From contig WFNB01000108.1 in NCBI GenBank assembly GCA_015488755.1, positions 1 to 64,000 on the forward strand: a stretch of DNA of 64,000 nt, written 5' to 3'. Shown in pieces: positions 5,646 to 27,777 of the stretch. Both the position numbers and the translations under genes were made by a program. The first letter of the stretch is position 1. The number at the start of each line of letters is the position of its first letter. This stretch comes from Gammaproteobacteria bacterium. Its GTDB lineage: Bacteria > Pseudomonadota > Gammaproteobacteria > GRL18. A model generated the notes under the pieces. That model saw only the letters and a program-made list of their open reading frames with translations. It ran no database searches and was not told the origin of the DNA.

Positions 5646-5881
5646 GCAACATTCACTTGAATTAGCTGGTGCTCTCTATCGGCGGCATACATTAAACAAG
5701 CGGTTATATCTTCTGGTTCCAACTCTGGAAAATCTTCTATTATTTCAGCTTGAGGCATTCCTTGTGCCAGCATATCCAGTATGTCATAAACGGTAATTCT
5801 CATAGAACGTATGCATGGCTTACCGCCTCTCTTGCCGCCTCTCTTGCCCGGCTCTATCGTTATTCTGCTTTTATAGTTCAT
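5642..5881 (-). CDS. DUF433 family antitoxin-like protein
   Basis: A 79-residue protein typical of DUF433: ITIEPGKRGGKPCIRSMRITVYDIL, then a helical AQGMPQAEIIEDFPELEPEDITACLMYAADRE. DUF433 proteins contain a winged-helix-like DNA-binding fold and are usually encoded directly before DUF5615 toxins, as here, where the two genes overlap by four bases. It probably bound the toxin and repressed the operon. KRGGKRGG near residues 13-20 is a local duplication of a GGKRG unit. With its partner truncated, the antitoxin may be a relic or may neutralise toxins elsewhere. Confidence 0.85.
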   Translation of the reverse strand: MNYKSRITIEPGKRGGKRGGKPCIRSMRITVYDILDMLAQGMPQAEIIEDFPELEPEDITACLMYAADREHQLIQVNVA

Positions 5882-5892
5882 TGTTTGTTTTC

Positions 5893-6030
5893 TTAGTTCC
5901 AGTCCTTGAATTTATAGATACCCATAATAAACACTCCATTAAAGTGATTGCCATTACTCAAAGTAAAGGCTTCTTTTCGTTCATCCAGATATTCATATTT
6001 ATCATAAACACCTTCTATTTTACTGGCATT
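5893..6030 (-). pseudogene. Possible tyrosine-recombinase C-terminal remnant
   Basis: Downstream of higA the minus strand stays open and reads NASKIEGVYDKYEYLDERKEA, then continues into the duplicated MGIYKFKDW leader and stops. The first part resembles the extreme C-terminus of phage-type integrases (pattern GVY.RYEYLDE+REAL). Only about 25 residues carry the resemblance, no catalytic residues remain, and there is no start. It is reported because a dead integrase next to a tRNA gene and toxin-antitoxin fragments would explain the patch. This is recognition by eye and could be chance. Confidence 0.3.
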
Positions 6031-6340
6031 AAATGGCCTGTAACCGCTCAATAGTATCAGGATATTTTTCAGTTAATTTCAATAATGTTATAGCCTGATC
6101 GTTTGGCTTGCTTAGCCCTTGTTCCCATTTCTCTAAGGTACGTGGTGAAATATGTAGATAGGTAGCAAACAGGGCGCGGGACATATTAAATTGCTCCCGA
6201 ATATCTCGAATGTTTTTTGCGGTCATTTTGATATGAGACTTATCTATTTTATGGGTTTTTAAGGTCATCTTTCCTTGATCATGTGCTTTGGCTTCTTTTA
6301 AACCTTGTTTAAGTTCTTCAAATAAATTACGCTTGGTCAT
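6029..6340 (-). CDS. HigA-type XRE-family antitoxin
   Basis: A 103-residue protein with a flexible N-terminal arm (residues 1-40), which binds toxin in this family, and a Cro/C1-type helix-turn-helix around residues 42-95 (NIRDIREQFNMSRALFATYL, then ISPRTLEKWEQG). It would neutralise the RelE-fold partner and autorepress the operon. Its ATG lies 14 bases inside the end of the toxin gene, the toxin-first order of higBA modules. It appears complete although the toxin gene is frameshifted. Confidence 0.85.
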   Translation of the reverse strand: MTKRNLFEELKQGLKEAKAHDQGKMTLKTHKIDKSHIKMTAKNIRDIREQFNMSRALFATYLHISPRTLEKWEQGLSKPNDQAITLLKLTEKYPDTIERLQAI

Positions 6341-6658
6341 GTTTCCAATCCTCTACAAACTGTTTTAATGTTCGTTTTTCATTTACTGTTAAGTCTGTTG
6401 TCTCATTTTTTGCGTATAAAGTTAAAAGGTAGAATCTTTCCTGCTTATCAAGCCAGTAATAAATAATCCGAACTCCTCCCCTTTTTCCTTTACCGTTGGC
6501 TGCCCAGCGTACTTTACGAATACCACCAGTGCCTTGAATAACAGAGCCAGACTTAGGGGGGTCATTAAAACTGACTGAAATTGATAATATGACGTATCAT
6601 CCAGATAATCAGGTCTTAATTTTTCAAATAAATTAGTTTCAACAAAAACAGCTTTCAT
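6327..6658 (-). pseudogene. HigB/RelE-family toxin, frameshifted
   Basis: Starting at the ATG at 6658, the product reads MKAVFVETNLFEKL and then leaves frame around 6560-6580, near TTTT and CCCCCC runs. In a second frame the rest of the toxin is clear: SGSVIQGTGGIRKVRWAA, then GKRGGVRIIYYW and LLTLYAK, ending at 6327. Together these make a full HigB2/RelE-type mRNA interferase of about 110 residues. One base is missing relative to an intact gene. A sequencing error or programmed frameshifting cannot be excluded, but loss of the toxin while the antitoxin stays intact is a common outcome. The upstream TATAC/GTATA half-sites could be an autoregulatory operator. Confidence 0.8.
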
Positions 6659-7369
6659 GCTTAAAGTATACTCTATGTGGGTATAGTTATCTATTAGAAT
6701 TGAGCAACACAACATTGCTCTCTGATTTTTGATTGTCGTTAAACTTCAGGGAGAGTATGTATGTCTATCTCATATTTTGTCCAGAGCTAAGTACGCATTT
6801 TTGCGAAGAACCCTAATTTCAAGTAGAACTAAAATGCAAATAATCCACAGAAGCTGTGGATAACTTTGTGAATAAGTTTGAATAAGTGAGAGGGAACAGG
6901 CTGGACACTTGCTTCTATTTAAGTTGGTTGAATTTCATACAAAGATAGGTTCCTGAAAATAAATGAACAATAAAATCAGTTAGTTATAAAATCTAATCCT
7001 GTTTGCTATTGACATTTAAAATGTCTCTTTATGGTCTTGCTTTATTGTTTGAGTACAGTATTCTAAGAGGTGGATAAGCTTTATAAAAACAGTACGTTAA
7101 TATGCATAGATGAAGTAAATTTTAAATTTCTACTGTAATCAGATTAACCATCTTTATGACGGGGCTTAGATATTACTCTAGGGGAATTGTGGGTAAGACT
7201 AATAATATATCGTGGTGGATTTTATGTAAATAATTCACAATGATTTGGGTACTACATTGCAGAAGTTGTTTGCTGTTTGCAATATAGTAGAACCATAGAG
7301 TTTGGTAAGTAATTAATTAATTGTTTCACTGACATGAAAACAGTTTCCTACAATCTTGATTTCTTATTT
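6659..7369. other. Long gene-poor stretch with repeat remnants and a possible small RNA
   Basis: No protein gene is convincing here. It contains the 18-base element GCATTTTTGCGAAGAACC at 6795-6812 (also at 5533-5550 with one mismatch), DnaA-box-like sites at 6843-6875, and a TTGACA near 7010. It ends in a strong + strand terminator at 7370. The terminator with no gene before it allows for an RNA gene of up to ~350 nt, but I see no known RNA family. Confidence 0.35.
6843..6875. promoter_or_regulatory. Cluster of DnaA-box-like sites
   Basis: ATCCACAG and CTGTGGAT form an inverted repeat at 6843-6861. Two sites match TGTGNATAA on the + strand (6855-6863 and 6867-6875), spaced 12 bases apart. 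A third near-match faces the other way. There is no dnaA, dnaN, rep gene or iteron array nearby, so this is not argued to be a chromosomal origin. It might be a DnaA-titration site or a relic of a mobile replicon. Confidence 0.3.
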
Positions 7370-7403
7370 GTGCCTGAACACTCCTTAGTCAGGCACTTTT
7401 TTT
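7370..7403 (+). terminator. Rho-independent terminator
   Basis: Stem GTGCCTGA/TCAGGCAC with a ~11-base loop, followed by seven Ts. It is strong and + strand only. No gene precedes it for several hundred bases. Confidence 0.8.
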
Positions 7404-7626
7404 ATACAAATTAATACTTTATTTCCATTATAATATTTTTATCAGATACAATTATGAGTATCGTTGATGCACATCATTCACTATTATTGGTAAAGGTAAT
7501 ACACTATAGTCTACTATCTTTGATACTAGCACTTGAGAATTAAATAAGTATTTAGTTACATTTCAAGCATATGTCTTACTGTTTTATGTAAGCTTAATAC
7601 TGATAATAATTATTGGTAGGTGTGTT

Positions 7627-8913
7627 GTGATCATTAAGAAGAATTATTCAATTTTATCCATCTTAGCGGCAACCTTTGTCCTTATTTTTATTCTGCTGTC
7701 CTTATTTTTTAACCGTTACACACAAGAATATGCTATCCAAGAAGCAAGGAAATTAGCACAAGATTCCTTGTTAACAGAACGTGCTATCCATAAATACATT
7801 CATACTGTATCTCGGCCTGAAATCTTTCGTTTAAAGGATGAAGGCTTACTTTATAGTGACTATTTTTCCCCAAAAACAATGTCTTTTACCTATGCTGCTC
7901 GGGGCATTATGGGTTTTCTTAATGAAGAACGAAAAAAGGCAGGCTTAACAGAGGTATATTTCAAATTGGCGGCAAGTAACCCAAGAAACCACTTAAATAA
8001 AGCAGATGAACAAGAACGACAGCTACTACTAAAAATGAATAATAAAAAAATAAACTATGTTAGTGATATTGCCCAGAATGCCAAGGGAGATAAATTTTTA
8101 TATGTTGCCATTCCAACCCAAGTAATGACAAAAAAATGTTTAAGTTGTCATGGTGATCCAGCAGATGCACCGAAAGAAATGCTGAAATTATACCCTGATA
8201 GGTCAGGCTTTTATGAGAAAGAGGGGGAGATTCGAGCATTAATCTCTATTCGAGTTCCGCTAAAGAAACACATGGAGAGTGCTAAAAAAGTCTCTACTAT
8301 TTTTATTATGAGTACTTTTTTTGCCTTGTTAATCATTTATTTAATTATTTGTTATTTTGTTTTGCGTATGGCTGAACAACAAGCGCTGATTATTGAGAAA
8401 AGTCTGGAGCTGGAGCACATGGCTGGTCATGATGTGTTGACGGGTTTACCCAATCGACGCTATTTTAGAAACTATGCTGAAGATAAGCTGGTGCAGGGAG
8501 AACGCAGTAATGATCAGGTTGCTTTTTTATATATTGATTTGGATGGCTTTAAAAAAATTAATGATGAGATCTCTCATCAGGTGGGTGATCTTGTGTTAAT
8601 TGCTATAGCAGATTGCTTTAGAACATTTCTTAGGAAAAATGAATTAATTGCTCGTATTGGTGGTGATGAATTTTGTATGGTTATTTTTGGCTATCATGAT
8701 AAGTCTGAATTAGAGAAAACAGCTCAACGTCTTATTAATAAATGTACTCAGGCAATAGATGTTGAAGGCATAGTTATTCAAGTGGGTATGAGTATTGGTA
8801 TTGCAAGCTATCCTGATAATAGTAAAACCTATGATGAGCTTATCTCTATGGCTGATGAAGCAATGTATCGTGTTAAAAAATACCATAAAGGTTCGTATGG
8901 TTTTGTAATATAA
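7627..8913 (+). CDS. Diguanylate cyclase with DUF3365 haem-c sensor domain
   Basis: A membrane-anchored c-di-GMP synthase of 428 residues. An N-terminal membrane segment (about 8-28) leads to an extracytoplasmic DUF3365/Tll0287-like domain with one c-type haem site CLSCH at 171-175. A second membrane helix (about 222-245) and a GGDEF domain follow, with RIGGDEF intact (GGDEF at 345-349), so catalysis is likely. The RxxD inhibitory site five residues upstream is replaced by RKNE, so product inhibition may be weak. The layout suggests a periplasmic redox or gas sensor (NO, O2 or similar) coupled to cyclase output; the ligand is unknown. The GTG start has a TAGGTG just upstream. Confidence 0.88.
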   Translation: MIIKKNYSILSILAATFVLIFILLSLFFNRYTQEYAIQEARKLAQDSLLTERAIHKYIHTVSRPEIFRLKDEGLLYSDYFSPKTMSFTYAARGIMGFLNEERKKAGLTEVYFKLAASNPRNHLNKADEQERQLLLKMNNKKINYVSDIAQNAKGDKFLYVAIPTQVMTKKCLSCHGDPADAPKEMLKLYPDRSGFYEKEGEIRALISIRVPLKKHMESAKKVSTIFIMSTFFALLIIYLIICYFVLRMAEQQALIIEKSLELEHMAGHDVLTGLPNRRYFRNYAEDKLVQGERSNDQVAFLYIDLDGFKKINDEISHQVGDLVLIAIADCFRTFLRKNELIARIGGDEFCMVIFGYHDKSELEKTAQRLINKCTQAIDVEGIVIQVGMSIGIASYPDNSKTYDELISMADEAMYRVKKYHKGSYGFVI

Positions 8914-17746: not shown

Positions 17747-19858
17747 GTGAATGGAAAAAATAGTAAGAGCATGAATGACCTGAACCATACCCTTAACCAT
17801 GACATCGAGCGTATAGAACTTGCGCTTATCGGTAACAAAGACGGCATCTGGGATTGGAACCTGCGAGATAATAGTGTCTATTTTTCACCAAGGTGGAAAG
17901 AAATGTTGGGTTATAAAGATAATGAATTGGCCAATGAGTTTACCACTTGGGAAAGGCTGATCCATAAAGATGATTTAGCACCTACAATGGCGGGTATCAA
18001 TAAAAATATAAGGGGTGAAACACAGTATTATGAAGGCGTTCATCGCCTAAAACATAAGGATGGCCACTGGGTTTGGATCTTAGATAGAGCCAAAACCCAA
18101 TATGATGCTCAGGGTAAAGCGACTCGTATGATTGGTACGCATACTGATATTAGCCAACAGAAACAGCAACAACAAAAGTTATTACATAAAACACAAATTA
18201 TTGAACAAATTAATGATGCCGTTATCTCAACGGATTTGGATGGTTACATTGTCAGTTGGAATCATGGTTCTGAGCGATTATATGAATATACTGCTGATGA
18301 GGCCATTGGTCAGCATATAACAATGATTTATCGTCAGGAAGATTTGCCTGTTTTTACACAAAATTCAGAAGAATTAATGCAAGTGGGTTCTCTTAATGTT
18401 GAAACACAGGCTCTTAATAAATCACAACAACCAGTAATGATAGAATTATTCTTATCTTTATTATGTGATGAAGATAATGAGCCAGTCAACATTGTTGGCT
18501 ATGCAAGAGATATTACTCAACGTAAAAAATATGAAGAGAAACTTCTTAAACAGCAAGATGTGTTACACCATCAAGCTCACCATGATGCCTTAACTAATCT
18601 GCCGAATCGAGCATTATTTAATGATCGGCTTTCTCAGGCAATAAAAAAAGCACATCGTAGCCAAAATGAAATTGCCATTTTTTTTATTGATCTGGATCAC
18701 TTTAAACAAATTAATGATTCTTTGGGGCATGGTATTGGTGATAATGTTCTTAAAGTGATTTCACAGCGAATTAAAACAATTATTCGAGAAGAAGATACCC
18801 TATCAAGGTTAGGGGGTGATGAGTTTACCATTATTATGGAAAACTTAAGTATGGGACGAGATGCCTCTAAACTGGCGCAGAAAATTCTTAAACTATTGGC
18901 AGAGCCGATACAAATTGAGCAACATCGATTATATATTTCTAGTAGTATTGGCATCAGTGTTTATCCGAGTGATTCAACAGATAAAGATAAATTATTGATG
19001 TATGCTGACACAGCTATGTATAAAGCTAAAGATAAGGGGCGGAATAACTTTCAGTTTTATTCAAAAGAGATGACAGCACAGGCGGTTGAGCATATTGTCA
19101 TGCAAGCCAGCTTACGAACAGCAATAGAAAAAGAAGAATTGCTTGTTTATTACCAGCCACAAGTCAATGCAGTTAATGGTAAAATTATTGGCTTAGAGGC
19201 CTTGGTTCGCTGGATTCATCCGGTTATGGGCTTGGTCTCCCCAGCTAAGTTTATTCCCATTGCACAAGAAACGGGCTTAATTGTTGATATTGACCAATGG
19301 GTTATGAAGGTCGCTATGACCCAAGTGGCACAATGGCATTATGCGGGGCTTAAACCAGGAGTATTAGCTTTAAATCTGGAAGTGAAACAATTGCAGAATA
19401 AAGAGTTTATTACCTTTCTTAAGCAAACATTATCAGATACAAGATTTAAACCGCCGTGGTTGGAATTGGAAATAACAGAAAGCCAGATTATGGCTGATCC
19501 AAATAAGGCGATTGAAGTATTAAAGCAGATCAGTGATATGGGTATTGAGTTAGCCGTCGATGATTTTGGTACGGGCTATTCTTCGCTGTCTTATTTAAAA
19601 AAATTACCGATTGACAAACTAAAAATTGATCAGTCTTTTGTTAAAGACTTGCCGGATGATGAAGATGATGTGGGTATTACTCAAGTGGTTATTGCACTGA
19701 CAAAAAGCCTTAATTTGAATGTGATTGCAGAAGGTGTCGAAACCTATGCTCAAAAAGAATTTTTAGTTGCCAATGGTTGTCATAATATTCAGGGCTATTT
19801 TTATTCGAGACCGTTACCGGCTAGGGATATGGAACTTCTCTTAAATACAGGGCTGTAG
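17747..19858 (+). CDS. PAS-PAS-GGDEF-EAL c-di-GMP turnover protein
   Basis: A 703-residue cytoplasmic protein with no membrane segments. Two PAS domains (about 25-140 and 148-258; the first contains GIWDWNLRD) precede a GGDEF domain with LGGDEF intact (356-360) and an REED inhibitory site five residues upstream. The EAL domain has LEALVRW (484-490), [19 protein letters not shown] and AEGVET, all catalytic residues present. Both cyclase and phosphodiesterase activity are possible, with PAS domains choosing the output. The start is either a GTG at 17747 or an ATG at 17771; neither has a clear ribosome binding site. Confidence 0.93.
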
Positions 19859-22840: not shown

Positions 22841-24232
22841 TTATTTCAAATAGATTGTTTTTTTAATAACATGATGCAATCTTATTGACATTAAAATTGC
22901 TGAAATGCTTAAGCCTATTAATAAACCAATCCAAAAACCACTGGCTCCCATAGGCTCTGTTATTAAGTGAGTGAGTGCCAATGCATAGCCTAGAGGAAAA
23001 CCAATAATCCAATAAGCGACAATGGATAGCAGCATGGGAATTGCAGTGTCCTTTAAGCCCCGCAATGAACCAGCAGAACATAATTGTATACCATCTGAAA
23101 ATTGATATAGAGCAGTGAAAATCATTAGGCCACTGGCGAGCTGGATGACCTCATTATTGCTACTATAGAGCATGGCAATACCAGAAGAAAAATTAATGAT
23201 CATAAAAGCTGCCATACCGGAGATGCAGAGGCTAATAAAATACCCCGTCTTAATCGTATCTTGAACACTTTGCCACTGGCGCGCACCACTTTGTTGCCCC
23301 ACCTGAATGGTTAGGCTAATGGAAAGGCTTAAGGGTAAAATAAAAATAAGCGATGAAAAACTGAGGGCAATCTGATGTGCCGCCACACTGACAACTCCCA
23401 TCGAAGCTAAAAATAAGGCAATAATTGAGAAAATACTACCCTCTACAAAAAGTGCAATCCCGATAGGAAGCCCTAATGCCAAGAGTGTTTTTAGTTCATT
23501 AAAATGCGGCTTTAAATGATATGTAACGAGTTGCACAGCGAGGAATTGTTTACTTCTAGAAACATAAATAAACAAACATAAAAACATCACCCAATGAGTA
23601 ATGGATGTGGCCCATCCTGCGCCTATACCACCAAGTTTAGGTGCCCCCCAGTGACCAAAAATAAGTAGGTAATTGACCATGATATTAACTACTAAGCCTA
23701 AAATACCAGTCAGCATAACAGGCTGAATATTCGCCATGCCCTCGTTGAGATAACGTAAAATATAAAAACCTGCAATGGCTGGCATGCCCCATGCGATAGC
23801 ATGAAGATAAGCACTTGCAATAGGAAGAATTTTATTATCAACCTGCATAAAAACAAAGATATCGTCAATAGAGTTTAGGAGGATAAAACCAAAAAGGCTT
23901 AAGGCCAGCCCAATCCAGAAGGACTGGCGTATGCTATGGCCTATTTTTTCAAAATTCTGTTCACCACAATAGTGGGCTATTATGGGGGTAATTGCGCTTA
24001 AAATGCCGCCAATGAGTAGTAAAAGAGGTATCCATATACTTGAGCCTACTGCTACTGCGGCCAGATCAGCAGCACTGGCATGGCCAGACATAATCGTATC
24101 AACAATGCCCATTGCCATCTGGCTGAATTGAGTTGCTACTATGGGGGCTGTAAGTGAGACTAAAGGAATAAATTGTTTTTTTATGGCTTGCTGTAAGTGA
24201 TAGAAAAAAGTGTCTGAAGTGGCGTGTGTCAT
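22841..24232 (-). CDS. MATE family multidrug efflux protein (NorM-like)
   Basis: A 463-residue inner-membrane antiporter with twelve hydrophobic segments in two six-helix halves. Family features include PIVATQFSQMAMGIVDTIMSG in helix 1 and the matching ALGLPIGIALFVEGSIFS at the start of the second half. It exports cationic drugs or metabolites in exchange for Na+ or H+. The bacterial NorM branch is inferred from length and helix 1 style. It is divergent from the stressosome operon and convergent with the tolC-like gene. Confidence 0.92.
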   Translation of the reverse strand: MTHATSDTFFYHLQQAIKKQFIPLVSLTAPIVATQFSQMAMGIVDTIMSGHASAADLAAVAVGSSIWIPLLLLIGGILSAITPIIAHYCGEQNFEKIGHSIRQSFWIGLALSLFGFILLNSIDDIFVFMQVDNKILPIASAYLHAIAWGMPAIAGFYILRYLNEGMANIQPVMLTGILGLVVNIMVNYLLIFGHWGAPKLGGIGAGWATSITHWVMFLCLFIYVSRSKQFLAVQLVTYHLKPHFNELKTLLALGLPIGIALFVEGSIFSIIALFLASMGVVSVAAHQIALSFSSLIFILPLSLSISLTIQVGQQSGARQWQSVQDTIKTGYFISLCISGMAAFMIINFSSGIAMLYSSNNEVIQLASGLMIFTALYQFSDGIQLCSAGSLRGLKDTAIPMLLSIVAYWIIGFPLGYALALTHLITEPMGASGFWIGLLIGLSISAILMSIRLHHVIKKTIYLK

Positions 24233-24325: not shown

Positions 24326-25351
24326 GTGATAGCCAGTAGCTCTACAACCTTTACTATACTAATAATGCCCATAGAAGCAAAAAAACAGACAATATTATTA
24401 AACATTCCTTTGTTTTCTGAAGTGGATAAACAGCGATTTATCCATTTTGTTATGAAGTGTTTAACGCTATTTAATGAAAGTTTATTTTCTGGTGCCGCAA
24501 AATTGCCTCAATTGCTTGCTCTTATGCCTAATAATACTCAGTCTGGTAATGCGACAAGTAATGATGCTAAAGAAAATTATTTTAATCTGCAATTAAGCAT
24601 GCTGGGGGACAGTCTTTATATTAGCGTCTGCAATAGAAATCCTGTCTATCAATCAGATTCAATAACACGACAGTTTTTCTTACGCCTTTCTACGCCACCA
24701 ACGAGCGAATTGATTGAGCAAGTTAAAAATACCCTCTATTTAGAGAGTGAAGTCAGTGATCCTGAACTATTGCGTCGACATAATGACAGCATTCGTGAAG
24801 AGATGAAGCGTGCTAAAAAAAGAGCTGCTCAAGAATTATCTGAATTAGAAGAAAAATTAGAACAAAAACGTAATCAGTTACATGAAAGCATCCGTCAGGC
24901 TGAAATTGATAGTCTGACGAATATTCTCAACCGTGGTGCTTATGACCGGCGTCTGCAAGAAAGTGTCTCAACCTGTCAGGAGCAACAATTACCATTGTCA
25001 TTAGTTTTTCTGGATTTGGATTATTTTAAGCAGGTTAATGATACCTATGGGCATCAGGCAGGGGATGAAATTTTAAAAAAAATGGCTCGTTCAATGACTC
25101 AAAATAGCCGTCAAAAAATAGATTATGTGTGCCGCATAGGGGGTGATGAATTTGCCATTATTTGTTTTTCAAATACGACCACTGCCAGTCGCTCAGCCTA
25201 TAAAGTTTTAGCAAATATGAAGGGCAAAGTCAGCATTGGTATTAGCTTATTGAGGGCAGATGATAATGTTGAATCGTTAGTTGCCAGAACAGATGAAGCT
25301 TTATATGAGGCTAAAGAAAAAGGTCGAGGACAGGTGGTTGTTAATGGTTGA
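24326..25351 (+). CDS. Diguanylate cyclase heading the stressosome-like operon
   Basis: A 341-residue soluble protein. The N-terminal ~150 residues are a domain I do not recognise, then a coiled coil (about 160-190, MKRAKKRAAQELSELEEKLE), then GGDEF with IGGDEF intact at 272-276. The inhibitory-site position reads QKID, not RxxD, so feedback inhibition is probably lost. It is first in an operon with RsbTX-, RsbR- and RsbS-like genes (12 bases before the next start), which makes it a candidate output of that switch. The start is uncertain: GTG at 24326, or ATG at 24365 (MPIEAKK); neither has a strong ribosome binding site. Confidence 0.88.
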   Translation: MIASSSTTFTILIMPIEAKKQTILLNIPLFSEVDKQRFIHFVMKCLTLFNESLFSGAAKLPQLLALMPNNTQSGNATSNDAKENYFNLQLSMLGDSLYISVCNRNPVYQSDSITRQFFLRLSTPPTSELIEQVKNTLYLESEVSDPELLRRHNDSIREEMKRAKKRAAQELSELEEKLEQKRNQLHESIRQAEIDSLTNILNRGAYDRRLQESVSTCQEQQLPLSLVFLDLDYFKQVNDTYGHQAGDEILKKMARSMTQNSRQKIDYVCRIGGDEFAIICFSNTTTASRSAYKVLANMKGKVSIGISLLRADDNVESLVARTDEALYEAKEKGRGQVVVNG

Positions 25352-25363
25352 GCACTTATTACG

Positions 25364-26458
25364 ATGAAATTAGCCATACAACAAGTTGTTAATGATCAAA
25401 GCAGTCTTGTTTTATTTAAGGTACGAGTTAAAACCTTAGCTAAAAAACTTGGCTTTAGCACCTTGTGCATTGAAAATATGCAAATTGTTGCCAGTGAAAT
25501 GTTATCTAATCAAATTAAATACGCCAATAAAACCGGTATGGTGCAGCTTTGGTTTAATGATGGTTTGGATGTCGGCATAAATGGTACCGCTAAGCAGACA
25601 CAAAGGCAGACTGATAATAATGGATGCTTGCCATTGCCTGTGACCATTGATTTATTTGCTATGGACTATGGTGCTGGTATTAACGATATTAAAAAAGCCA
25701 GTCAAGATGGTTTTACTACCTCTGATACAATGGGCAAAGGCTTAGGTTCTGTATCACGTTTGGCACATGAATCGGACTTGTATTCGTTAACGGATAAAAA
25801 AGGCTGGCATGGTGTTGCCTTGTGGGGACGTTTTTATCGTTCAGAGGATAATAAACCCGAACACTATCAAGTCGGGCAGTTTGTTCGTTCATATCATGAT
25901 AGGCCACAAAATGGTGATGCTATTTTAGTACAAACCAGTAATCGTCAACTGAGTTATTTACACTTGGATGCTACAGGTCATGGTCTTGAGGCAGAAAAAA
26001 TTATTAATAAAATTAAATTAGCTCGTCTTAATATATTGCAGGCGAATGCCCATAAGATTTTATCTATGACAGAGCAGGCATTGCAGACAACGACAGGTGC
26101 TGCTGCGGTTGCTCTCAAATATAATACAGCTTCTGGGCGTGGAGAGTATTGTGCGGTTGGTGATATGCGTGTCAGTTTGCTCAATATTCAAGCGACTAAA
26201 CCGCCAGACCTTGTTGAATGTGAGGTATCCCCTGGGATTTTAGGCCATGCTACGCGTAGTTATCATGCTCAAGAATTTAATTTAGCCATAGGTGAATTGA
26301 TACTAAGTGCCTCTGATGGTATTCGGCGTAATTGGACGGTAAATGATTTTCCTAATTTATGGCATAAACACCCGCAACTGATCTGCTTACTATTAGGTAA
26401 TAATAAAGGTAGAAGCAGTGACGATCAATCAATAATTGCTATCAGACGGATAGCATAA
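25364..26458 (+). CDS. RsbT-like kinase fused to RsbX-like SpoIIE phosphatase
   Basis: A 364-residue two-domain protein. Residues 1-150 form a GHKL ATPase like the switch kinase RsbT: N-box SEMLSN (E45, N49), DYGAGI at 101-106 and MGKGLG at 123-128. Residues 170-364 form a PPM/SpoIIE-type serine phosphatase like RsbX, with metal-binding aspartates in LDATGHG (202), SDGIRRNW (~314) and SSDDQS (~354). In Bacillus, RsbT phosphorylates RsbR and RsbS, and RsbX removes the phosphates. Having both in one chain places opposing activities on one protein. It is followed by the STAS partners in the same operon. Confidence 0.85.
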   Translation: MKLAIQQVVNDQSSLVLFKVRVKTLAKKLGFSTLCIENMQIVASEMLSNQIKYANKTGMVQLWFNDGLDVGINGTAKQTQRQTDNNGCLPLPVTIDLFAMDYGAGINDIKKASQDGFTTSDTMGKGLGSVSRLAHESDLYSLTDKKGWHGVALWGRFYRSEDNKPEHYQVGQFVRSYHDRPQNGDAILVQTSNRQLSYLHLDATGHGLEAEKIINKIKLARLNILQANAHKILSMTEQALQTTTGAAAVALKYNTASGRGEYCAVGDMRVSLLNIQATKPPDLVECEVSPGILGHATRSYHAQEFNLAIGELILSASDGIRRNWTVNDFPNLWHKHPQLICLLLGNNKGRSSDDQSIIAIRRIA

Positions 26459-26479
26459 AACCATATAAAAGAGGTATTT

Positions 26480-27430
26480 ATGGGCAAAACGACTATAAGC
26501 AAAGAGAAACTGTCAAAAGAGAAAAATACTAACAAAAATGTACTGACACAAAATGAAGAAGTAGTGGCTGACACTCGGTCAACAGAAACATTACTTATTG
26601 AAAATCTTAAAGTAAACATAGGCAAAATTTCCGGCATAATTGAAGCACAGGGTTGTGCTGCTTTTTGTGATACCAATTTACTTTCCAGCGAAGAAGTAGA
26701 AGATTATTCATTGGAGTTTTTAGAATTATTTGTGCAAATTTTAGGCTCAGGTAATGAAAAAAATAAGGACAGTGATGAATATCAGGCACTCATCCATTTT
26801 TTCAATAATTGCTCAGAACAATTACAAATACGTGGTGGTACGTTAGAGCAGTTTGTCGCTTATATGCATTTTTTGCAGACCAGTTTGATTCAGGGCTTAG
26901 AAGATGATGACTCTCTAAGTAAAGTTCAGTTTCGAGAAGTCCTATTAATGATTGCGGCTTTATTTAATGATATTAGCCTACAAGTTTTTAAACTGTATCT
27001 GAGTGAAAAAGAATTTACCATACGGGCACAGCAAGAGGAGTTGCTACAGACATCAACACCGATTACTGAAATTTGGGATGGTGTGCTCACACTGCCTATT
27101 ATTGGTAGTTTAGACTCCTCTAGAACCATGATTGTTATGGAAAAATTACTGGAACGCATTGAAAGTGAGCGCTCTCGTATGGTGGTTATTGATGTCACCG
27201 GTGTAGTGACGATTGACTCTCAGGTTGCTCACCATCTGATCCAGATGATGCGTGCCATTAAACTGATGGGAGCCGTACCGATTATTACGGGTATTCGACC
27301 AGAAATTGCCCGCGCATTGACCAGTCTAAATATTGATCTTGATGGTGTGATCACACGAGCCACCTTATCCGATGGTCTCAAAGAAGCCTTTGCTCACCTG
27401 AATATTTCGGTTACTAAGCAGGCTCAATAA
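26480..27430 (+). CDS. RsbR-like stressosome STAS protein
   Basis: A 316-residue protein. A helical N-terminal sensor region (about 35-185) and a linker lead to a STAS domain starting near TPITEIWDGVLTLPIIGSLD (about 195-312). The STAS core carries VVIDVTGVVTIDSQVAHHL; its Ser aligns with the site phosphorylated in RsbR STAS domains (Thr171 in B. subtilis). The second site, in GIRPEI, is followed by ARAL here, so the Thr205 equivalent seems absent. The N-terminal region lacks obvious haem ligands, so the signal is unknown. The stop overlaps the rsbS-like ATG (TAATG). Confidence 0.85.
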   Translation: MGKTTISKEKLSKEKNTNKNVLTQNEEVVADTRSTETLLIENLKVNIGKISGIIEAQGCAAFCDTNLLSSEEVEDYSLEFLELFVQILGSGNEKNKDSDEYQALIHFFNNCSEQLQIRGGTLEQFVAYMHFLQTSLIQGLEDDDSLSKVQFREVLLMIAALFNDISLQVFKLYLSEKEFTIRAQQEELLQTSTPITEIWDGVLTLPIIGSLDSSRTMIVMEKLLERIESERSRMVVIDVTGVVTIDSQVAHHLIQMMRAIKLMGAVPIITGIRPEIARALTSLNIDLDGVITRATLSDGLKEAFAHLNISVTKQAQ

Positions 27431-27777
27431 TGTCGGGCATTCATCTTACGGTACTGTCTAGAAAGTGCGTCTTACTTGAGCCGGGTATTAGTCTTGATCC
27501 GGCAAAACCAGAAGACTACGCTCTGGATATTATTACTTTCATACAAAAAAACCATACCCAAGGCTTAATTTATGATTTAAAAAATATTCCTTTGATTGAT
27601 CATACCTATTATCAATGGCTAAGCTATTTGTTTACCCTATGTAAGCTTAATAATGCACAATTTATTGTGGTGCATATGCAACCCTCAGCCGCCTATGGCT
27701 TAGCTCGTATTATTAGTGAGCCTCCCCCATTTAAATCTGCTTTAAGTATCGAAAGTGCTAGAGAGCTGTTTTTTTAA
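27430..27777 (+). CDS. RsbS-like single STAS protein with altered phosphosite
   Basis: A 115-residue single STAS domain, the RsbS partner that co-assembles with RsbR and holds the kinase. In B. subtilis the switch residue Ser59 lies in MVDSF; the aligned segment here is LIDHTYYQWL, so His replaces Ser with a Thr next to it. Either the Thr takes over or the phospho-switch is lost. It is translationally coupled to rsbR and ends the operon. Confidence 0.8.
   Translation: MSGIHLTVLSRKCVLLEPGISLDPAKPEDYALDIITFIQKNHTQGLIYDLKNIPLIDHTYYQWLSYLFTLCKLNNAQFIVVHMQPSAAYGLARIISEPPPFKSALSIESARELFF

Follow-up and report, generated by a model that had tools for sequence, protein, structure and literature searches.

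A stressosome-like gene module lacking stand-alone RsbT, with a diguanylate cyclase as its probable output, in a gammaproteobacterial genome and its relatives

Analysing a 64,000-nucleotide (nt) stretch of contig WFNB01000108.1 (hereafter the window) from a Gammaproteobacteria bacterium of the GRL18 lineage (assembly GCA_015488755.1), we characterized a tight plus-strand cluster at 24326-27777 encoding a GGDEF diguanylate cyclase, a HATPase-PP2C kinase-phosphatase fusion (TX), an RsbR-like protein and an RsbS-like protein. The module as a whole very probably controls the cyclase, a much safer claim than any docking step, and there is about an even chance that it does so as a reduced stressosome-like partner switch of the kind outlined below. 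Somewhat short of even stands the view that it represents an RsbT-free stressosome variant, in which a dead RsbT-like domain of the output enzyme would dock on the STAS core, with a single RsbR phosphosite and a bifunctional kinase-phosphatase. A one-phosphosite switch with a docking output is supported by the strict linkage of cyclase and TX, the intact TX sites, the loss of phosphosites, the absence of RsbT and the predicted fold of the cyclase N-domain.

In the proposed mechanism, the core would consist of two STAS proteins, RsbR with its sensor N-domain and the RsbS-like protein; the kinase half of TX would phosphorylate RsbR Ser247, and its PP2C half would take the phosphate off. RsbS, in most relatives no longer phosphorylatable, would serve as a fixed or passive docking subunit, and the cyclase would dock on the same STAS core, either together with TX or in competition with it, by means of a catalytically dead domain of RsbT/RsbW type. 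This docking would change when RsbR is phosphorylated, and with it, through a coiled coil, the pairing of two GGDEF domains; the bound state could be either on or off. Coiled-coil control of GGDEF outputs has precedent in PMC12143880.

The four-gene order and its tight spacing, both put forward in an earlier note on this DNA, were borne out: the open reading frame (ORF) positions were confirmed, with gaps of 12 nt between cyclase and TX and 21 nt between TX and RsbR, and a 1-nt overlap (TAATG) between RsbR and RsbS. Nor is the order random among relatives, which that note had named as grounds for dropping its proposal, since the full order is kept in 23 complete loci (the window, L019, L020, L022-L025, L027, L053-L066 and L108), two further loci (L021 and L026) being interrupted at contig ends. 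The fusion was matched in 7 of the 57 genomes of a first relative set, and within the window's genus the module is patchy (4/16 genomes, the window's included). Across a class-wide sample of 369 genomes, window-type TX occurred in 16 (E <= 1e-64), six other TX hits being weaker and those inspected coming from modules of other kinds. Searched independently, with the cyclase N-domain as sole query, the sample gave strong matches (E <= 1e-22) in the identical 16 genomes, a 16/16 co-occurrence that rules out a chance neighbourhood. The two genes adjoin in all 15 genomes whose neighbourhood was read, and the sixteenth, G375, carries both on one short contig, at coordinates that fit adjacency. Carriers include metagenome-assembled genomes labelled Sulfuricellaceae, Gallionellaceae and Halorhodospira.

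The stressosome-like nature of the proteins, likewise part of the earlier proposal, is upheld by STAS domains in RsbR and RsbS and by GHKL boxes and an RsbX-like PP2C half in TX. Pfam searches on TX returned SpoIIE/PP2C at 3e-8 and HATPase only weakly (0.05), yet every GHKL box is present in the alignment. The kinase residues E45, N49, D101, G103, G105, G124 and G126 and the phosphatase residues D185, D202, D318, D353 and D354 are invariant in 23/23 relatives, both active sites being intact. For the PP2C half, which keeps the acidic metal-ligand positions, the matches were 3zt9 and RsbX 3w40; the former is a phosphatase of the SpoIIE type that PMC7647112 cites in connection with the Moorella stressosome. 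The kinase-phosphatase fusion seen by the earlier note is thus real, but it is not the simple RsbT-RsbX join then supposed, because its kinase domain groups with HATPase-PP2C fusions, apart from RsbT, in a HATPase-domain tree (short domains, midpoint-rooted, without Bacillus outgroups; local support 0.97). Such fusions are common in Pseudomonadota rather than unique to the window, and elsewhere in the phylum they adjoin a separate RsbT.

The Pfam STAS domain was matched at 1e-12 in RsbR and 0.003 in RsbS, which aligns along its length with B. subtilis RsbS. Among the RsbR members, STAS was present in 23/23 and RsbRD_N in 14/23 (E <= 0.01). Phosphosites are numbered here as in B. subtilis, the system in which their roles are established. 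At the RsbS position equivalent to Ser59, 1 of the 23 relatives has Ser and 2 have Thr; the residue in the others is His (as in the window), Glu, Lys, Gln, Arg, Pro, Asn or Ala. In RsbR, 23/23 carry Ser or Thr at the Thr171 equivalent (Ser247 in the window), and none carries Thr at the Thr205 equivalent, which is occupied by Ala or Ser in 23/23 (Ala279 in the window). As judged from these alignments, of the three classical phosphosites only the RsbR Thr171 equivalent appears to survive. Loci with a separate RsbT plus a fusion have Ser or Thr at RsbS Ser59 in 17/17 and Thr at both RsbR sites.

An RsbT profile matched TX alone in the window's genome, where no stand-alone RsbT was found, and the same search found none in 16 of the 18 module-bearing genomes, whose matches besides TX are weak (E >= 1e-7) and fall in longer ORFs, about as large as those of histidine kinases. 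In the remaining two, G049 and G105, a separate RsbT is encoded away from the module. G049 holds a cyclase-type module (L053) plus a canonical R-S-T module (L069), whose own HATPase and PP2C pieces lie in different frames. A phylum-wide Pseudomonadota sample, with its gene neighbourhoods, revealed three further layouts: R-S-T-X with all proteins separate; R-S-T followed by a HATPase-PP2C fusion, often with a histidine kinase whose N-terminal HATPase domain is RsbT-like; and R-S-TX lacking a separate T, beside a histidine kinase or a GGDEF-EAL protein (L104 and L107). The outputs of the third layout (L104 3127-5124, minus strand, histidine kinase; L107 6063-8570, plus strand, GGDEF-EAL) begin with a degenerate RsbT-like half domain, which aligns with the histidine-kinase HATPase group (hhalign E 4e-6), and in both loci the RsbS Ser59 site is likewise lost. 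With no separate RsbT, degenerate RsbT-like outputs and no Ser59, these two loci count in favour of a docking output. The true peculiarity of the window's module is the missing stand-alone RsbT, rather than the fusion itself.

The GTG start of the cyclase at 24326 is doubtful, because the first ~15 residues are modelled with low confidence and are not common to relatives; the true start is possibly ~24368. Its catalytic GGDEF residues are intact. In the inhibitory site (I-site), R-x-x-D is replaced by R-x-x-x-D, with the Arg one residue further out, as the earlier note had seen in calling the site degenerate. R262 and D266 are nevertheless invariant in 23/23 relatives, which cautions against calling the site dead, and the L024 cyclase has Arg at both spacings. 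AlphaFold2 predicted an alpha/beta domain (beta-alpha-alpha-beta-beta-beta-alpha), a helix at residues 146-193 and then the GGDEF domain. No Pfam match, RsbU_N included, was obtained for the N-domain in the 23 relatives, and RsbU_N was set aside, the predicted fold being no four-helix bundle. The N-domain was also predicted alone (predicted local distance difference test score, pLDDT, 87.5), since the full-length fold search filled with GGDEF matches. In the VIA second-look alignment its top nine matches were RsbW, SiaB, UsfX, SpoIIAB and anti-SigF factors (Z 7.3-5.2). Profile alignment by hhalign against the HATPase domains of stressosome-linked histidine kinases scored 25.1, against a maximum of 19.3 for 60 column-shuffled profiles; this group alone was significant, RsbT proper, the fusion kinases and the L104/L107 N-domains not being so. 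A histidine-kinase-type protein with an RsbT-like N-terminus (L109) was matched by both profiles. The N, D and G boxes of ATP binding were sought in the N-domains of the 23 relatives, and no such conserved motifs were found. No single line is decisive; taken jointly, the evidence leans towards a GHKL domain that has degenerated and has no ATP-binding motifs. Two weak N-domain matches (L128 and L129) were rejected: one lies within a HypF-like protein, the other in a reading frame on the opposite strand of another gene.

Several observations weigh against a docking output on a one-phosphosite core. The best fold match of the N-domain, at 6% identity, reaches only Z 7.3; nothing passed E <= 0.001 in plain Foldseek, where the best match had 0.16; a PDB profile search reached E of about 1 at best; and the pairwise profile probability with the histidine-kinase HATPase domains is only 24%. 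Two loci with separate T and X (L110 and L111) have altered RsbS sites, so that Ser59 and RsbT are not always lost together. Among the relatives, one still has Ser and two have Thr at the Ser59 position, and three have at the RsbR Thr205 site a Ser that could be phosphorylated.

The main rival explanation is a release as in Moorella: under stress, TX would come off the RsbR-RsbS core and, by binding the N-domain and linker of the cyclase through its kinase domain, turn that enzyme on or off. The cyclase itself would at no time touch the core, and its contact with TX might be, for example, a GHKL-GHKL pair. GHKL partner-switch kinases dimerise, which counts for this release, as does the constant adjacency of cyclase and TX. 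RsbT moreover controls MtG and rigidifies the RsbU linker, according to PMC12143880 and PMC7647112. However, the window's cyclase is without an RsbU_N domain and TX carries the kinase domain of the fusions instead of a true RsbT, and we consider release rather unlikely. Direct phosphorylation of the cyclase by TX, reversed by the PP2C half and with RsbR and RsbS merely titrating TX, is the least probable of the explanations weighed here. It echoes the RsbT-dependent phosphorylation that Heinz et al. propose (PMC9237108) for outputs without RsbU_N; yet an alignment of 23 relatives shows no fully conserved Ser or Thr in the cyclase N-domain, and the usual targets of GHKL and PP2C partners are STAS proteins. 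Barely more credible, and improbable in its turn, is that a dephosphorylated STAS protein binds and stabilises the coiled-coil stalk of the cyclase rather than its N-domain, much as SiaC binds the SiaD stalk and activates SiaD (PMC8457831). The cyclase likewise has a long helix, but the cluster is without a SiaC-family gene, the cyclase scores 106 bits against a cut-off of 290 for the SiaD equivalog, and its N-domain is a conserved folded domain, whereas SiaD is described in PMC8457831 with two short helices only.

Wiring of a stressosome to cyclic di-GMP, the output that the earlier note had presumed, is likely here and was already known: the Moorella thermoacetica stressosome controls the diguanylate cyclase MtG, as given in PMC4976288, PMC12143880 and PMC7647112. 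That system shares an RsbR/RsbS/kinase/phosphatase module encoded with its GGDEF output, but MtG has RsbU_N and GAF domains and the RsbT-like kinase MtT is separate, whereas in the window the cyclase has a predicted GHKL-like N-domain and is the first gene, and kinase and phosphatase are fused. The original Moorella stressosome-MtG study is reportedly that of Quin et al. 2012. The RsbRST/RSTX modules of Bacillus, Vibrio and other Proteobacteria also combine RsbR and RsbS STAS proteins, a GHKL kinase, a PP2C phosphatase and an adjacent output gene; the window's module differs in having no stand-alone RsbT, in the lost RsbS Ser59 and RsbR Thr205 sites and in its upstream output gene. In Pseudomonas aeruginosa SiaABCD, a PP2C, a GHKL kinase and a phosphorylatable antagonist control a coiled-coil GGDEF cyclase, but SiaA and SiaB are separate, SiaD has no folded N-domain and the SiaC-family protein has no counterpart in the window's cluster. 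Sinorhizobium BgrU/BgrW/BgrV/BgrR, compared by description only from PMC7647112, likewise places a Ser/Thr partner switch over a cyclase, with separate proteins; related partner switches control SiaD and BgrR (PMC8457831 and PMC7647112). Sharing the fusion type are the R-S-T-(HATPase-PP2C) modules L092-L103, L106 and L109, several of whose outputs have an RsbT-like N-terminal domain; they differ in keeping a separate RsbT and Ser or Thr at the Ser59 site, and their output is a histidine kinase.

Three elements are new: the lack of RsbT, the smaller set of phosphosites and the kinase-like domain borne by the output enzyme; the two phosphosite losses and the likeness of the N-domain to a dead partner-switch kinase had been overlooked in the earlier note. 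No description of a cyclase-first, RsbT-less layout was found in the open-access literature, most subscription journals lying outside that search. Heinz et al. (PMC9237108) describe eleven kinds of architecture downstream of RsbR modules of the globin type, GGDEF proteins included. The same paper has most Gram-negative stressosome outputs without RsbU_N, and gives no positive result for Vibrio RsbT against the downstream two-component protein. If outputs indeed carry degenerate RsbT-like domains, docking on the core becomes a directly testable route by which Gram-negative stressosomes may reach their outputs, and the reduced phosphosite set makes this module a naturally simplified setting in which to ask what phosphorylation event transmits the signal.

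Table 1. Features of the four-gene module, in window positions
Feature	Position	Strand	Basis and remarks
Diguanylate cyclase (N-domain, coiled coil, GGDEF)	24326..25351	+	341 aa from GTG; GGDEF Pfam 4e-36; AlphaFold2 mean pLDDT 88.7
Cyclase N-domain, residues 20-146, predicted degenerate GHKL / RsbT-RsbW-like, without ATP-binding motifs	24383..24763	+	AlphaFold2, VIA, hhalign
Long helix / coiled-coil linker to GGDEF, residues 146-193	24761..24904	+	AlphaFold2 model
Non-canonical I-site R262-x-x-x-D266	25109..25123	+	Upstream of GGDEF motif 25139-25153
TX (HATPase-PP2C fusion)	25364..26458	+	GHKL kinase ~25364-25843; PP2C/SpoIIE phosphatase ~25859-26455
RsbR-like: N-terminal RsbRD_N-type sensor domain and C-terminal STAS	26480..27430	+	STAS ~27062-27427
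RsbR Ser247 codon, Thr171-equivalent phosphosite	27218..27220	+	Alignment
RsbR Ala279 codon, Thr205 equivalent, phosphosite lost	27314..27316	+	Alignment
RsbS-like single-domain STAS protein	27430..27777	+	Alignment with B. subtilis RsbS
RsbS His58 codon, Ser59 equivalent, phosphosite lost	27601..27603	+	Alignment

A promoter and terminator scan of the locus scored no better than shuffles, and defence-system models gave no meaningful match to the four genes. The module is flanked by a divergent MatE-type transporter gene (22841-24232, minus strand) and by aceE (27991 onward), both named from sequence. In the window family (L019-L022, L071 and the window), every carrier whose flanking sequence extends far enough has the MatE gene upstream, and most have aceE downstream; these shared flanks suggest one ancestral site, with patchy loss within the genus. 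In the congener locus L071 (G008:C160:40000-52000), cyclase and PP2C half form a single 594-aa ORF (5826-7607, minus strand) through an in-frame deletion that removes the GGDEF end and the entire kinase domain, RsbR and RsbS being intact; this is either a natural deletion or an assembly error.

Two other genes near the module encode, as judged from sequence, a membrane GGDEF protein (7627-8913) and a PAS-GGDEF-EAL protein (17747-19858). Further along, next to the aceE-aceF-lpd genes, a large anti-phage defence island spans 34042-60674, with a DrmD-like helicase, a type IIG restriction-methyltransferase, Hachiman HamA and HamB, PDC-S02, PDC-M29A, HEC-01A, a DruE-like 2183-aa helicase and a UvrD-type helicase.

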